From: Gammaproteobacteria bacterium
GTDB taxonomy: Bacteria > Pseudomonadota > Gammaproteobacteria > Eutrophobiales > Eutrophobiaceae
DNA length: 64,000 bases
NCBI GenBank assembly: GCA_012103475.1
Contig: WLWS01000002.1
Span: 682,081-746,080 of the forward strand
Direction: 5' to 3'
Both the position numbers and the translations under genes were made by a program. The notes under the pieces are model-generated. The model was not told the DNA's origin and made no database searches. It saw only the letters and a list, made by a program, of their open reading frames with translations. Positions 28,817 to 37,210 of the stretch are shown here, in pieces (positions within the stretch are counted from its first letter, which is position 1; each line of letters opens with the position of its first letter).

Positions 28817-29980
28817 ATGAAAAATGGCAAGGGTCCCCTGAAAGGTTTTCGGTTTATCGAAGTGGCCGGAATAGGTCCGACTCAGTTATGCGGTATGTTA
28901 CTGGCTGATATGGGTGCCGAGATCATTCGGGTTGAAAGAATCAATACTGTTGATCTTGGTGTTGGCATGGAGGAGAAATACAACCTGATGAATAGAAGTC
29001 GACGCTCTGTCGCCATCAACCTCAAAGATGCACGCGGCCGCGAGTTGCTACTTGAATTATGTAAACAAGCTGATGCGCTATTCGAAGGCTTTCGGCCAGG
29101 CGTAATGGAACGTCTGGGCCTTGGGCCGGAACAGTGTATGAAACAGAATGCCAAATTGGTCTATGGACGAATGACAGGCTGGGGGCAGGAAGGGCCGCTC
29201 GCACAAGCAGCGGGACACGACCCGAATTACATCAGCATTGCCGGCGCTCTCGGACTGATTGGTGATGATGGAAATGGCCCGACATATCCCTTGAATATTA
29301 TTGGTGATTTCGGGGGAGGCGCCCTTTATCTTGCTATGGGTATGCTAGCCGCTCTTCTGGAAACAACTAAATCAGGTAAAGGCCAGGTAGTAGATGCAGC
29401 AATGATTGATGGCGTCGCTTCCTTACTCACCTATTTTTATAGTCTGCAGGAGGCTGGCGAATGGAGCAGAGAGAGAGGTAAAAACGTTCTTGATGGCGGA
29501 GCGCACTTCCTCAGGCCCTATAGAACTTCGGATGATCAATATATTGTTGTGGGTGCTCTTGAGGCGCGTTTTTATGAGAACCTTCTGGATACTCTGGAAA
29601 TAGACGATTCCGATTTACGTAACAATCAGATGGACAAGACAAACTGGCCTCAATTCAGAGAAAAATTACAAAATATATTTTCTACTAAGACAAGAGATGA
29701 GTGGCTGGAAATATTTTCTGATTCTGAAAGTTGTTTTTCACCGGTTCTCAGCCTTCAAGAAGCCACTCGTCACCCTCATGCACTGGAAAGAAACAGTTAC
29801 ATTGACGTTGCCGGAATTACACAGCCGGCGCCAGCGCCGAGATTCAGTCGGACGCCATCGAATATTCAATCTCCTCCAGCCGAAATAGGTGAACACACCA
29901 TAGATTGTCTTTCAGATTGGGGAATTGACAGAACGCTAATTGATAAACTACTAAAAACCGAAATCATCATGCAGTCTTAA
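28817..29980 (+). CDS. CaiB/BaiF CoA-transferase family protein (alpha-methylacyl-CoA racemase-like)
   Basis: LKGFRFIEVAGIGPTQLCGMLLADMGAEIIRVER...NRSRRSVAINLKD...FEGFRPGVMERLGLGPEQ...GRMTGWGQEGPLAQAAGHDPNYISIAGAL. Confidence 0.93.
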   Translation: MKNGKGPLKGFRFIEVAGIGPTQLCGMLLADMGAEIIRVERINTVDLGVGMEEKYNLMNRSRRSVAINLKDARGRELLLELCKQADALFEGFRPGVMERLGLGPEQCMKQNAKLVYGRMTGWGQEGPLAQAAGHDPNYISIAGALGLIGDDGNGPTYPLNIIGDFGGGALYLAMGMLAALLETTKSGKGQVVDAAMIDGVASLLTYFYSLQEAGEWSRERGKNVLDGGAHFLRPYRTSDDQYIVVGALEARFYENLLDTLEIDDSDLRNNQMDKTNWPQFREKLQNIFSTKTRDEWLEIFSDSESCFSPVLSLQEATRHPHALERNSYIDVAGITQPAPAPRFSRTPSNIQSPPAEIGEHTIDCLSDWGIDRTLIDKLLKTEIIMQS

Positions 29981-30002: not shown

Positions 30003-30018
30003 TGTGAATCAGTTCACA
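30003..30018. promoter_or_regulatory. CRP/Vfr-like binding site TGTGA-ATCAGT-TCACA
   Basis: Exact TGTGA-N6-TCACA within AATGTGAATCAGTTCACACAAATT, in the intergenic region about 114 bp upstream of the ORF at 30132. Confidence 0.6.
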
Positions 30019-30131
30019 CAAATTGTCCGAAATTCAGTTACGATGGAACCCCTAGAATTTACACTTGAGCTGACAACAGCATAATTTTATCTGAATCACA
30101 CTGTTAACCGGAGAATGGTGCTAATACCCCC

Positions 30132-32723
30132 ATGACTCGCTTTGGCTTTTTTCTGCATAACCCAATAAAAACCTCTCTGTTTTTTGTATTCCTATTTCTG
30201 TTGTGCGTATCTTTCCCTCTCTCTATTCATGCTGACGAAGAAGAGACACTGGATAAAATTGAAAATGCCGCTGATAAAATAAAGGAGTTAATCGAAGCCT
30301 ACCAGGAAGCTGATGTCAATTTCGTAAAGAAAGAAATTGTTAGCATCAAAGATACTTCCGGCAATCCTCGAGATTGCGACGTCGCTATATTCTATGACAA
30401 TGGTCAACAAGCTCGCTTTACAACCAAGGAAGGTCGTTTTGAAGGCAACTTCGATCACGGTACTAATGTCCCTGCCAATTCTCTGAGTTTGCGTCTATCT
30501 AATTGCGAATGTCGTGCAATAAGAACCCGGCATGTATCAACATGGTTAGGCGTAATCGAAGAAATTGAAAAAGTTAAAAAAGTCATTGCTGATGAAATTG
30601 AAGGGATGCTTGAAGAAAAAGCCAGCGAATATGCCGAAGAACTTCTTAATAAACTGGCAGAAAAAGCGGGACTTGCTGCAGGCGCCAGCGGCTTCTTAAC
30701 TGGTTTTAAAGCTGGTGCCGAACTCGGTGCAGCAGTAGGTGATCATATTACTGAAGAAATTAACAAAATTCTCGATAGTGCCAGGCAGAAAAACCAGCAA
30801 GCCGCTAAAGATCTCAATAATTCTCCCTTGTATCCGAGTGTCGGTCATATCAGTCCGCGCGGCTGGTGGGGAAACACGCGGGGAGAAAATCCCAAGTTAC
30901 AGAACAAGTGGGATATAACTGTGCGTTGCGGTTCCAGAATCATTCCTCCTGCAGCCGCAACATGGTCTGATACAAATCAGCTGGAAGCCGCACAGGAGCG
31001 CTTCGATTATCCGCCTGAAACTTCATCAGGTACTAGTGGTACCGATCGTCAGGCTGAGCAACAACGCGCCCGTGAAGAAGCGCAGCGACAGCGGGAACAA
31101 GGTAAAGCCGAAGCTCGAGCGGAAAGAGAACGTCAGCAGGAAGCCGAAGCCGCCCGTCGCCGCTACGAAGCTGAGCAACGCCGCATCGAACAAAAAGCGC
31201 AGGAGATAGCCAGAACCTGCACTATCTGCGATCCGATTCGCGAACAGATCAGACTGGCTGAACAGGAACTTCAGGATGCCGAAGCAAGCCTGCCAGATCT
31301 GGAACAGGCTGTTAGTGAAGCAGAAGCAGCCAGAAATCGCGCTCAGAATAAGGAACGCCAGGCTCGTCAAAGACTCAATGAATTTCTGAACCCGCAAAGC
31401 TCAGCTACTAATGAAAGCACCGGAAGAACAGCAACTACAACTGATCTGGAAGTAAGAAACCAGGCCGCACTGGAAGCACAGGAGCGCTATCGTTCCGGAG
31501 AAGCATCAGCGCAGGAAACCGAGGAAGCCTGGAAGAATCTGGATGATCCCGAAAAAATCGAAGAGCTAAAAGAAGCAGCGCAAGAACGTCTGGAAAATGA
31601 GATAACAACAGCAGAGCAGGAGCGCGAACAGACAGACACAGACTTTCAGAATGCACGGCGTGATCTTGCCCGCGGCAAACGCAAAGTCGACAATGCCAAG
31701 GACTATATTGAATATTTAAAAAGTAAGCTGGAAGAATGCATTAAGCAATGTCAGGCACAAGCACGTAGTATTGCCATTGGCCATGTCGTAGATCTGGATG
31801 ACCTGATGGACTACAGAGTGCCGCCTTCATCGCCAACAATTACCCCAACGGAAGCCACTCCTTCTACGACGACTGCAGAGAATAAAGACTTGTTTGAAGA
31901 TATTTTTGGACCCGGTCGTGATACTGAAATTGAAATTGTCGATGTCATCAATATCAGAGGTAATGATCCTTATGATCCTTATGATCCACGCGATCCACTC
32001 GCGGAAGAATCTTCTCAGATAGGCCTTGAGATTGTTCTCGAAGCAGAGCCCGAGCCGGAACAACCTCCACCACCACCATTACCGCCACCACTTCCACCAG
32101 TGATGACTGATGCGAGTTTCAATGCTCAATGTGATGTCCAGTCCGGCGCAGGAACGCATGATGTCAGCATCGATGGCAATCCATTTTGTTCTCAGACAGG
32201 CACTGGTGTAAATGGGGGTACAGCTAATTTTATGTGTATACCTGGTGATTCTGTGTCAGTTTCAGGCACCTGTACTGGCCCGGGAAGTTGTCGTGCCTTT
32301 GTCAACACCACTACCAATCTGAACTGTCCTTTTCCCGACGGTGGGTTTTTGAATGGTGGATTCAACGGCAACATCGGTTATACAGGAACAGCCTCGGTAA
32401 ATTGTAGTTGTGACGCAGTGGGGCCACCTACGAGTGACGTCGGAATCAGTGCCAACTGTGATGTCAATTCCGGTAGCGGAACCAGCTCGTTGTCAATTGA
32501 TGGCACAGAGTTTTGTAGTGTCAACGGCAGCGCTTCGGACTTCGCTGGTGGCGCTACATTCATCAGATGTAACTCTGGAGACACTGTTACCCTGACTCAC
32601 ACCTGCACCGCAACCGATTGCCGCTTTACATTAGGGGAAAGCACACTGCCCTTCCCCGGTCTCGTTCCCGGTACCAATGGTCCCTTTAGCGGCGTAACTA
32701 CTTTTACTGCGACCTGTCCCTGA
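30132..32723 (+). CDS. Large exported coiled-coil protein with proline-rich linker and two C-terminal Cys-containing repeat domains, unknown function
   Basis: 863 aa, hydrophobic leader; Glu/Ala/Arg/Gln-rich helical region; DPYDPYDPRDP; EPEPEQPPPPPLPPPLPP; duplicated CDV.SG.GT..LSIDG..FCS domains. Confidence 0.8.
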   Translation: MTRFGFFLHNPIKTSLFFVFLFLLCVSFPLSIHADEEETLDKIENAADKIKELIEAYQEADVNFVKKEIVSIKDTSGNPRDCDVAIFYDNGQQARFTTKEGRFEGNFDHGTNVPANSLSLRLSNCECRAIRTRHVSTWLGVIEEIEKVKKVIADEIEGMLEEKASEYAEELLNKLAEKAGLAAGASGFLTGFKAGAELGAAVGDHITEEINKILDSARQKNQQAAKDLNNSPLYPSVGHISPRGWWGNTRGENPKLQNKWDITVRCGSRIIPPAAATWSDTNQLEAAQERFDYPPETSSGTSGTDRQAEQQRAREEAQRQREQGKAEARAERERQQEAEAARRRYEAEQRRIEQKAQEIARTCTICDPIREQIRLAEQELQDAEASLPDLEQAVSEAEAARNRAQNKERQARQRLNEFLNPQSSATNESTGRTATTTDLEVRNQAALEAQERYRSGEASAQETEEAWKNLDDPEKIEELKEAAQERLENEITTAEQEREQTDTDFQNARRDLARGKRKVDNAKDYIEYLKSKLEECIKQCQAQARSIAIGHVVDLDDLMDYRVPPSSPTITPTEATPSTTTAENKDLFEDIFGPGRDTEIEIVDVINIRGNDPYDPYDPRDPLAEESSQIGLEIVLEAEPEPEQPPPPPLPPPLPPVMTDASFNAQCDVQSGAGTHDVSIDGNPFCSQTGTGVNGGTANFMCIPGDSVSVSGTCTGPGSCRAFVNTTTNLNCPFPDGGFLNGGFNGNIGYTGTASVNCSCDAVGPPTSDVGISANCDVNSGSGTSSLSIDGTEFCSVNGSASDFAGGATFIRCNSGDTVTLTHTCTATDCRFTLGESTLPFPGLVPGTNGPFSGVTTFTATCP
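31965..32000 (+). repeat. Short tandem 9-bp repeat (gatccttat gatccttat gatccacgc gatccactc) encoding DPY DPY DPR DPL
   Basis: Read directly from sequence. Confidence 0.8.
32121..32723 (+). repeat. Two diverged copies of a C-terminal domain within the 863-aa protein
   Basis: NAQCDVQSGAGTHDVSIDGNPFCSQTGTG (from ~32121) versus SANCDVNSGSGTSSLSIDGTEFCSVNGSA (from ~32449). Confidence 0.8.
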
Positions 32724-32748
32724 CCTTAAGATACCCAAGGTAAAACGA

Positions 32749-33255
32749 ATGCGATACAAACTTTTATTTACAGCCTTGACGATTTCGCTGGTGTTGAGCT
32801 TCAGTAATGTAATGGACAGCGAAGCACGTCAGCTTCGTACAATTTCCGCCCCAGCCAAAATAAAAATGAAACTGCCTGATGGCGCTATCCCGGTGGATGA
32901 GGCCAGAGATTTAGATCGAAGGCAAATAAGCGCTGCCGTGGAACAAGTTGTGTCCCTTTGGAACCAGGGAGATACGGCCAGCACCTTGTCTGAGAGGTTT
33001 TTTGATAAAAGTCGCTTAAGCGATGCGATAGATAGTCTTGTTCCCAGAGATGCGACCTTAAGAATCCAGTCTGTGCAGGGAGTACGGACTCTGGAGCAAT
33101 ATTTACTGCCATCATCAAAAGGCAACAGGTTGGTCAGTGTTGTTTCGGCCACAGTTCGCACACAACTGGAATTCAACGACCCGAGCACCGGCTTCGTCCA
33201 GCGTCAGGGTGTAAATGAATTTATTCTACAAATCAGTCAACCGGCACAAAGATGA
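32749..33255 (+). CDS. Hypothetical exported protein
   Basis: 168 aa with signal peptide; 3' end overlaps the next start (ATGA). Confidence 0.75.
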   Translation: MRYKLLFTALTISLVLSFSNVMDSEARQLRTISAPAKIKMKLPDGAIPVDEARDLDRRQISAAVEQVVSLWNQGDTASTLSERFFDKSRLSDAIDSLVPRDATLRIQSVQGVRTLEQYLLPSSKGNRLVSVVSATVRTQLEFNDPSTGFVQRQGVNEFILQISQPAQR

Positions 33256-35438
33256 GTTCATCAACTCAAACCCTGATCTTTTTTCTGTTTCTAAGCTTCA
33301 CGACTTATCTCGCGGCAGAGAAAGCAACGACGGGTTGGGATGTGTACGGCAGCAATACACTTAGGGGAAGCGTCTATGATGCTAGCGGTCCCGGTTCAGG
33401 CAGTCCTTACCCTTTCGAAGGCGATATGTATTTTGATGAGTTAAGCGTGTTTTTCAGCAAAGAAGATTCAGACTACGCTTCCTGGCGTGGTGAAGTGAGT
33501 GGTTTGTATAACGTGAATGACGACTATCGTAGTCAGGATTTCGGTCTGGTGCCGGAACGTATGAACCTGACCCGTGAAAGTGGCGAAGGCGTTATTCCCT
33601 ACCGCGTCGAGATAGGTGACTATTTTGCCTACTACAGTTATTTGACCCTGCAGCGTTCGTTAAAAGGTCTGCAGCTGGAACTGCAGCCCTTTACTAATGA
33701 CAGACAGCAGCATTCGATTATTATCACCTCTGGTGCAAACGAAAATAACTGGCGCGACCTCACCCCACAGGACAACTACGTTAACGGTCTCTCCTGGCTG
33801 GTTCAGGATCAGAAACTCGGTAGCTGGACTTTCAATATCGCTCACAACTTTCAGGACAATTCATTCAAAGCCGGCACTCTGGACAGGAATCAATACACCT
33901 ACAGTGTGGCAGGCGAAGTACCGTTTACACTGGGTAATCATTTTGTTTCGATCGAAGCGGAAGCGGCACACTTTGGCGGTGATCACAATGGTCGAACAGG
34001 TGCGGCCAGCGGCCAGGATAGATCCGATAATGGTTATCTGGTCGAAATGCGCGGAAACCACAAAAAGCTGCCCTGGAATTATCGTTTTCGTTTTGAACGC
34101 TATGGACAGGATTTCCGTCCTACCGGCGCAGTTGTCACGCCCGACAGGGAATCTTACGAATTACACAGTGGCTGGCGATTTCAAAACAACATTCAGATAC
34201 GTCTGCGTGCACAACGATTTGAGGACGCTCTGGAAACCAGTAATTCACTACGAACTCGCACATACGGGGTAAACCTGACGGGACCATTGTTAACAAACTG
34301 GTATACCGGATTGAATGGTCGCATTGACGCCTTTGTTCAAAACCGCGATAACGAATTAACTACCATCAGCCAGTTGAGCCAGACCATCAACGTCAACCTC
34401 AATGCTCCCTTGCCGCAAGGCTGGACTGGTCGTCTCGCCTTGTTTTTGCAGAATGTAAAAAATCGACTTGGTAGAAGCGGCGATACGCTGACACGCCAGG
34501 TAAATATTGGTCTCGACCGTGGCTTTACTATTTCCGGATGGCAGGCTTATATTACCCCCGGCTTTACTCTGCGAATACTACGGAAAGGTGGTCGTGATGA
34601 TGAAGAATATCGACCTTCACTTGCCCTTCGTCTAAACAGGGACGCACATTCCCTGAGCATGAATTACGGTTTACAAATTCAAGACAGAACCAGCACACTG
34701 GGTGGAATAGATGTCGACACTCATACCTTCAATGCTGACTATCGTTACCGTTACAAACATCATACTTTGGGTTTTGAAGCGAATCTTTTCGGACGTGAAT
34801 CCGAACTCAATCCGGACACTGAGGCCTATCGTATCTCGGCATACTGGACGATGACATTTGATAAACCGGCGGTCCCTGCCACGACAGTACGTCAGGCTGA
34901 CGTAAGCAGTAAGGCATTACCTGCAGGTGAATGGCAATTAAATCTCATAACACTAGGACCCGAAAGTGAAATTAAACACGTGGAATCGGAACTAAAAGCT
35001 GCCAATATCAGTCGTGGTACCCAGCAGGGAGGCTATACCGTTTATGAGACGGCTGTACTTCGCAATATTTTCCGGCGACAACGTCTGGCTCTGGCCTATC
35101 AGGCGGGTGTCCTGAGGGATGCAGTAGTCGTGATTGACTTTGATGAAGTCGGTAATCGTGATAGTAATGCGCAAAGTTACGAAAGAATTCGCCAATCACT
35201 TATTCGCCAGTTGGGTAGCCCCAGCCGGACCATTGATGAAGGTGATTTTACCAGCACACTTGCGCGTGATGTTAATGATGAGCGTTTTATCAGAATTACG
35301 GAATGGCAGACTGAGCGCGGCAGCATTCGATTCGGCATACCGCGACGTCTGGATGGTCAGGTCAGAATGGAAATTCAACACCGAAGCAGATTTCCTTCTT
35401 ATCGCGACACGCTTTGGTCAGTAGAGGCTGTACGTTAG
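33252..35438 (+). CDS. Putative outer-membrane beta-barrel protein with C-terminal SPOR-like region
   Basis: Signal peptide; alternating aromatic beta-strand pattern (SYELHSGWRFQNNIQIRLRAQRF; YRYRYKHHTLGFEANLFGRE); C-terminus WQLNLITLGPESEIKHVESELKAANISRGTQQGGYTVYET. Confidence 0.65.
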   Translation: MSSSTQTLIFFLFLSFTTYLAAEKATTGWDVYGSNTLRGSVYDASGPGSGSPYPFEGDMYFDELSVFFSKEDSDYASWRGEVSGLYNVNDDYRSQDFGLVPERMNLTRESGEGVIPYRVEIGDYFAYYSYLTLQRSLKGLQLELQPFTNDRQQHSIIITSGANENNWRDLTPQDNYVNGLSWLVQDQKLGSWTFNIAHNFQDNSFKAGTLDRNQYTYSVAGEVPFTLGNHFVSIEAEAAHFGGDHNGRTGAASGQDRSDNGYLVEMRGNHKKLPWNYRFRFERYGQDFRPTGAVVTPDRESYELHSGWRFQNNIQIRLRAQRFEDALETSNSLRTRTYGVNLTGPLLTNWYTGLNGRIDAFVQNRDNELTTISQLSQTINVNLNAPLPQGWTGRLALFLQNVKNRLGRSGDTLTRQVNIGLDRGFTISGWQAYITPGFTLRILRKGGRDDEEYRPSLALRLNRDAHSLSMNYGLQIQDRTSTLGGIDVDTHTFNADYRYRYKHHTLGFEANLFGRESELNPDTEAYRISAYWTMTFDKPAVPATTVRQADVSSKALPAGEWQLNLITLGPESEIKHVESELKAANISRGTQQGGYTVYETAVLRNIFRRQRLALAYQAGVLRDAVVVIDFDEVGNRDSNAQSYERIRQSLIRQLGSPSRTIDEGDFTSTLARDVNDERFIRITEWQTERGSIRFGIPRRLDGQVRMEIQHRSRFPSYRDTLWSVEAVR

Positions 35439-35492: not shown

Positions 35493-37210
35493 CTAAGTAT
35501 GTCCTGAATACATTTGCTCAATTTCACTTTCAAAACGCTCCATGATTACTTTGCGCTTCATTTTCATGGTAGGGGTTAACAAACCATTTTCCACCGTCCA
35601 AGGATCTTGGATGCAATGGCTATGATAAATCTGTGCATAACCGGGAAATTCTTTCAGGCATCCGCCCAGCTTCTCCAGAATTATTTTTTCGCATTCGCTG
35701 TCGTTCACATCTTTATCTGCCAGACCCGCTTCGGCGGCGATGGTTTTCCAGCGATGTTGATTAATGACTGTTAATACAACCAAAAAAGGTTTGGCCTCGC
35801 CGATAACCATGGCCTGTTCAAACAGAGAGTTGGAGGCAATGGCCAGTTCCATATCGACCGGGCTGACTTTTTCACCGTTTGCGAGAACGATAATGTCCTT
35901 AAAACGGCCTCAGTGGCTTCCTGATTTTTCCAGTAACCGAGCATGATGTTTTCGCCTTTGGCAAACAACTCATCATTCTCACCAATACGCACGTCGACTC
36001 CCGGAATCGCCTTGCCAATACTATCCGGTTTGTTTTCTTCAATGCGGTTAACGCTGATTATCGGACTGCTTTCTGTTAATCCATAGCCCTGCACAATCGG
36101 CACACCGAGCCCAACAAATACTTTTGAAATTTCGGGTGAAAGCGCAGCGCCACCACTGACAGCTATCTGCAAATTACCACCGAGACGTTCTGTGATCTTG
36201 TCAGCAACCAGTCGTTTTAAAAGTGGCCACATGAAAAGCAGCATTGGTTTTTTTGCCCTGCCTTGTAAATACTCGAATCGCTGCCAGCCCAATTCCACTG
36301 CCTGCCAGAACAGGCGTTTTTCAAAGTTTGATTTTGCTGCCAGATTTTCTTTAATTTTTGCATACACCCGCTCATAAATTCTTGGTACTGAAATCAGACC
36401 ATGGGGTTTAATAATCAGTAAATCTTTTGCCAGCTCAGGGATACCTCTGGCGTGCGCTACCGTTGCCCCGGCCATCATCGGCAGATAATAACCAACTGTT
36501 CTTTCCAGGGTGTGTGAAAGTGGTAGAAAAGAAAGATAAACGTGATGAGTGTCTATATCGAAGACTTGCAGGGCGTTATAACTGTTACTGAGAATGTTAC
36601 GATGACTCAGCATGACGCCTTTTGGTTTACCCGTCGTGCCTGAGGTATAAACAATTGTCGCTAACTCATCCGGGCCAAATACCGGTCTATCAACTTCCGG
36701 ATAATCCATGGGCAACCAGCTTCCCATATGTAACAGACGTTTATCTTTGCCCCCTGAACATTCTGCAATGCTGATAATGCGTTTTAATTTTGACAGCGGT
36801 TTCAGACTGGCGTGAAGATCCTGCCATTGCTCATCACCACCGATAACCAGTAGCCTGACTTCCGCATGCTCTAATATGTAAGCAACGTTATCGGCACGAT
36901 CCTCGGTATAAATGGGCACCACTACCAGTCCAAGTGACAATATAGCCTGATCAAAGATCACCCAGTAACGCGAATTACGCGCCATGATGGCAACTTTGTC
37001 GCCAGGTTTCAGTTTTTCTTTTGCCAGGGCAGCGCGGCAACGGGCCACATCTTTGGCCGTGGCTCTCCAGGAACTGTCGGTCCAGACACCGTTCAAGGCA
37101 TCATAAAAACGATAGGCACAATTTTCGGCTGAACGACTGACTCTTTCCTCAAACAACTCTGGTAGAGTTGTGGCCACATCAGGCCCGATAACAGAATTTC
37201 TGGCAGTCAT
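35493..37210 (-). pseudogene. Long-chain acyl-CoA synthetase (AMP-forming) with internal deletion and frameshift
   Basis: TIVYTSGTTGKPKGVMLSHRN, QGYGLTESSPIIS, GENIMLGYWKNQEATEAVL then directly KDIIVLANGEKVSPVDMELAIA in another frame; DGW.TGD...GR segment absent at ~35898-35906. Confidence 0.85.

Follow-up and report, generated by a model that had tools for sequence, protein, structure and literature searches.

Outer-membrane pores that serve clients of their own are, to our knowledge, few and well catalogued. CxxCH is the heme-binding motif, and a multiheme cytochrome partner defines MtrCAB. A 26-stranded barrel for polysaccharide export, with relevance to GfcD and YjbH, is described in PMC11494523. 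We set these systems, together with the chaperone-usher (PapC/FimD) and Slam (surface lipoprotein assembly modifier; type XI) barrels, against three consecutive genes, here called A, B, and C, which span positions 30132 to 35438 on the + strand of the window, the whole 64,000-nucleotide stretch of DNA from a marine gammaproteobacterium that was analyzed. A sequence-only reading had described them as three exported, co-oriented genes, and the ORFs of 863, 168, and 728 aa, the 25-bp gap between A and B, the 4-bp ATGA overlap between B and C, and the hydrophobic leader at the N terminus of A, B, and C alike were all confirmed. The 5′ neighbor (28817 to 29980) encodes a CoA-transferase (PF02515), and the 3′ neighbors converge on the locus and read as fatty-acid metabolism genes. 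A fadD-like acyl-CoA ligase in the window (35493 to 37210, - strand) appears to be split into two overlapping frames of 479 aa and 119 aa, which suggests a frameshift or an assembly error. The features of the locus are as follows.

30003 to 30018, no strand assigned: CRP site TGTGA-ATCAGT-TCACA, a perfect TGTGA-N6-TCACA, its first base 129 bp upstream of the start codon of A
30058 to 30085, + strand: promoter-like hexamers TTTACA-16-CATAAT, weak, their count not above chance
30132 to 32723, + strand: gene A, 863 aa, exported; proposed client or surface protein
31218 to 31751, + strand: putatively stapled module of A (aa 363-540), CxxC, then 169 aa helical and charged, then CxxxC
31959 to 31988, + strand: motif of A, GNDPYDPYDP (aa 610-619), preceded by IEIVDVINIR; consensus vxvvDVxxIxGNNPFDxxDP
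32046 to 32102, + strand: proline-rich linker of A, read from the sequence
32103 to 32720, + strand: C-terminal pair of tandem, Cys-rich, beta-type domains of A (aa 658-769 and 768-863)
32749 to 33255, + strand: gene B, 168 aa, exported; predicted three helices, then three long strands (AlphaFold, Foldseek, family alignment)
33252 to 35438, + strand: gene C, 728 aa, predicted outer-membrane protein
33339 to 34865, + strand: predicted beta-barrel of C, ∼26 strands (aa 30-538), with AYWTMTF as a typical aromatic final strand
34938 to 35435, + strand: conserved soluble alpha/beta C-terminal domain of C (aa 563-728), ending RFGIPRRLDGQVRMEIQH...LWSVEAVR

On a moderate-confidence model, C may resemble MtrB/PioB of MtrCAB in being an outer-membrane barrel of ∼26 strands without a recognizable plug, and it has a partner encoded alongside; however, no sequence relation was found, A is no cytochrome, B has no counterpart, and C carries a C-terminal soluble domain. 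The chaperone-usher systems share with the locus a large barrel (predicted for C, with the best Foldseek E values, 2e-9) and an exported (here putative) client, whereas C matched no usher family in Pfam and NCBIfam scans, neither a pilus chaperone nor a pilin was recognized in the locus, and the conserved gene set showed no recognizable chaperone-type gene. As in Slam, a dedicated outer-membrane barrel is encoded with a (here putative) surface client, but C matches neither SlipAM nor TPR, the search for a SlipAM barrel with N-terminal TPR giving no match in 16 C homologs, and a lipobox is not evident in the window A. The capsule-associated barrels GfcD/YjbH are similar to C in size and in reported strand number (PMC11494523) but showed no relation to it by profile comparison, and no capsule genes were recognized near the locus; hhalign of C with GfcD and YjbH from E. 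coli gave a probability of 0.2%, and membership of this family was rejected. The locus departs from the usher, Slam, GfcD/YjbH, and porin-cytochrome families in at least one defining feature of membership each. Its likeness to usher, Slam, GfcD, and MtrCAB appears to lie in the way of working, by analogy: a barrel dedicated to its particular partner.

The earlier statement that no known system could be recognized held when characterized families were tested by sequence, profile, and structure. Pfam and NCBIfam gave zero matches above curated cutoffs for A, B, and C of the window, PADLOC was negative for the same three proteins, PDB sequences gave nothing beyond chance for B and C, tblastn with C against plasmids and phages was negative, and no described system matching A-B-C was found in the open-license literature.

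The AlphaFold model of C, built with five sequences only (pLDDT 71, pTM 0.53), predicts ∼26 strands, an approximate count, and an alpha/beta C-terminal domain, with a fold match that is generic to large barrels. When this model was searched with Foldseek, ushers were best by E value (2e-9) and MtrB had the highest TM-scores (0.44/0.49), a result that supports a large barrel and not membership of the usher or MtrB family. Two of the 16 aligned C homologs match Porin_4 (best E value of 3.5e-8) and thus lend independent support to the predicted outer-membrane barrel, which the sequence-only reading had put forward as a putative one. The SPOR-like C terminus that it had also seen in C did not stand, since no SPOR domain was found in any of the 16 aligned sequences, the window C and 15 homologs. 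One distant C homolog (locus L065) has two real stretches of the peptidoglycan-binding SPOR domain (E value of 4e-13) as an addition at the N terminus, hinting at a peptidoglycan connection. In locus L045 the end domain of C occurs alone as a predicted lipoprotein, with a subthreshold resemblance to BamE (E value of 0.07).

For B, the AlphaFold model is a confident one (18 homologs, pLDDT 85) and predicts three helices and three strands of 18 residues. The nearest solved folds in Foldseek were the intermembrane-space domains of ARC6/PARC6, Tim44, and mL45, all of them weak matches (E values of 0.008 to 0.1, TM-scores of ∼0.35). B perhaps resembles the NTF2/Tim44-like fold (ARC6/PARC6, Tim44), with which it would share helices followed by a long-stranded sheet, but the E value is 0.008 or worse, the TM-score only ∼0.35, and there is no Pfam match, so that the resemblance is a lead and no proof.

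Profile searches of 369 gammaproteobacterial genomes found C in 11 and B in 9, and all nine of the B-positive genomes also had C. The two genomes with C only were not taken as containing real members, since one match covers 33 residues (G008) and the other is a truncated barrel without B (G253). B and C were found sparsely in two further classes of the phylum, and their distribution is patchy even in the order to which the window belongs (5 of 53 genomes, one of these being the 33-residue match). In 16 of the 19 loci that have both genes, B is the immediate 5′ neighbor of C, mostly with the stop of B overlapping the start of C. Two of the three exceptions, L042 and L068, still have the three genes grouped, now as C-A-B, and the third, L067, has B and C on one strand with ∼2 kb between them. 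An A-type protein adjoins B-C in nearly every readable locus, and the three genes are in this sense co-conserved. At L068:5468-8672, a FecR-domain protein (E value of 3.6e-9) is encoded between C and A. The locus is found near mnmG-rsmG-parA in G001 and G020 (L011 and L010) and elsewhere in the window genome, and its position therefore changes between relatives.

The genome G124 has the locus split over two contigs, one with C and B and no A (L046) and the other with A and a second B (L093), and this A retains the motif ('VRLIRVTQLQRNGTNPFDF'). Because the trio persists in this genome though it is not contiguous, the arrangement argues for a functional link among the three genes. That three unrelated envelope genes are adjacent by accident is barely credible: A, B, and C could each be exported alone, as such neighbors would be, but the co-occurrence, the kept order, the split locus, and the shared motif and conserved CRP site described below all contradict it. 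Our preferred reading, to which we give about even chances, is that A, B, and C make up one envelope system in which C, together with B, would export or display A, recognized through its motif.

The CRP site of the window is one of eight perfect sites in the 4.19-Mb genome, compared to two for a control pattern. Two of these eight precede the two copies of the locus in that genome, the one in the window and a paralog on contig 17; for upstream stretches of 160 bp, simple multiplication puts the chance of both copies having a perfect site at ∼1e-7. The paralogous locus has its perfect site at -104 and the congener G002 has one at -107, in upstream DNA that otherwise aligns poorly, and in G002 the spacer bases differ from those of the window. 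The window genome also encodes a true CRP equivalog (314.7 bits, with a cutoff of 266 bits). The case for CRP control is far stronger than the earlier note of a CRP-like site could make it, and we infer that the locus is regulated by CRP, in this genus probably as cAMP-CRP control. Since the more distant relatives tested are without the CRP site upstream of the locus, this control looks like a genus-level feature. Promoter-like hexamer pairs were found 7 times, with 6.7 expected.

Further observations were made at other perfect CRP sites and at the paralog. One of the eight sites (L073:2464-5001; G000:C17:395463) precedes an outer-membrane protein with TPR and a subthreshold SlipAM-like match, which is followed by an exported protein resembling a FecR-domain protein, and at L074:2307-3111 (G000:C17:1004306) a perfect site is followed immediately by the gene of a CRP/FNR-family regulator. 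In the second A-B-C locus of the window genome (L009:9423-11603; G000:C17:293431-295599), also behind a perfect site, a single in-frame TAA falls near codon 136 of the C gene, which may reflect decay of the gene or an error in the sequence.

A-type proteins follow a common plan across loci, in which a signal peptide precedes a body, the conserved motif, a linker of low complexity, and a beta-type domain at the C terminus. In the window A, the coiled-coil, proline-rich, and cysteine-repeat picture drawn earlier was recovered as a charged helical stretch at aa 300-545, the proline linker, and tandem Cys domains with 39% identity to each other (E value of 4e-19). The bodies come in two styles. 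In the first, helical segments lie between a CxxC pair and a CxxxC or CxxxxC pair; when such Cys-framed modules are defined by low Pro/Gly and high charge, the A proteins (14,171 aa) contain 12 and the other ORFs (217,532 aa) none. These modules would fold as disulfide-stapled helical hairpins. The second style consists of short tandem repeats (L043, L066, and L093) and is also that of a partly sequenced repeat protein in L065.

The CxxC pairs of A, and MtrB being top by TM-score in the Foldseek list of C, would fit a porin-sheath conduit of the MtrCAB kind, with C enclosing A and the paired cysteines carrying a redox function across the outer membrane. We consider this very remote, given that in the A sequences read by eye the CxxC pairs have no following His and form no heme-binding CxxCH, that helical stretches lie between the pairs, an arrangement expected of structural staples, and that cysteine is very scarce in some A proteins (L021 and L043).

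The long Cys-framed helical bodies also favor the main rival to export, namely, that A is a periplasmic stapled helical rod linking C to peptidoglycan or the inner membrane, with B as an assembly factor and no export through the outer membrane. The N-terminal SPOR domains of the C homolog in L065 would agree with such a tether, but the variable, swappable C-terminal beta domains of A, carried after a flexible linker, look surface facing, several A proteins have repeat bodies and not rods, and no known peptidoglycan-binding domain was found above the cutoff in A, and we therefore judge it unlikely.

In the export reading, the motif would be the part of A that is recognized. A strict pattern, GN[ND][PSGR][FYL][DNS]xx[DN]P, occurs in 10 of the 14 main A proteins, and the remaining ORFs of these loci (217,532 aa) do not contain it; the pattern was derived from the A proteins themselves, so that only the background, which takes in non-coding ORFs, is an independent count. 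Looser forms include NGTNPFDF (L093), GAGTNPFNF (L066), and QSGTNPFNP (L068), and in the A candidates of L044, L022, and L015a the motif is weak or missing, L044 having none. An exact DNA search for the motif in 21 genomes gave five matches away from B-C (G020, G296, G003, G008, and G016); the loci retrieved for them contained no A-type protein, two of the matches lay inside unrelated membrane proteins, and they were rejected as orphan A clients. The A protein of a Neptunomonas MAG (L021:2086-5610) has a stretch resembling a kinase-type glycine loop (LGEGSFSTAFTAK...VIKV), for which Pfam gave no match.

By sequence comparison, A is the fast-evolving, mosaic part of the locus, with swapped bodies and C termini, and B-C is conserved. 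The window A and the A of congener G002 (L012) share 58% identity over aa 6-571 and diverge thereafter; the end of the L012 protein resembles that of L041, and the body of the L009 protein resembles the L041 body. A C-terminal domain of the form 'HYH...DPxPxxCGxG' is common to seven A proteins (L009, L010, L011, L012, L013, L020, and L021), and in L042 HYR is matched above the cutoff and GEVED just below it. Such strong diversification and domain swapping against a conserved B-C, together with the L042 matches, would suit delivery of a variable A by B-C in competition or attachment, the diversity of A reflecting conflict or cell contact. However, neither a toxin domain nor an immunity domain or gene was recognized, PADLOC was negative, and adhesion would be a purpose of export and display and no replacement for that model, so that as an explanation in its own right we regard an effector or adhesin system as quite improbable.

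Returning to export or display of A by C and B, we propose that C is a wide outer-membrane barrel of ∼26 strands with a periplasmic C-terminal domain and that B is a small exported adaptor, possibly NTF2/Tim44-like. A would be the exported client, and B and/or C would recognize its vxvvDVxxIxGNNPFDxxDP motif. The linker of A may then thread through C, which would show the C-terminal beta domain at the cell surface, or the whole of A may leave through C. On this account the locus would be a surface structure. The sequence-only reading of an unrecognized envelope assembly with a dedicated outer-membrane barrel is supported by the lack of a characterized match and by the co-conservation of the genes. 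Only tentatively do we go further and suggest an undescribed export or display pathway, one that would combine a ∼26-strand barrel with an NTF2-like adaptor, recognize diverse mosaic clients by a sorting motif within them, GNNPFDxxDP, and occur sparsely over at least three proteobacterial classes.

If this is true, the barrel-adaptor-client trio adds a route by which proteins are placed on the Gram-negative surface, and a trio with its own internal sorting motif would fall outside every family tested. The motif of A offers a handle for finding further clients and makes the idea directly testable.
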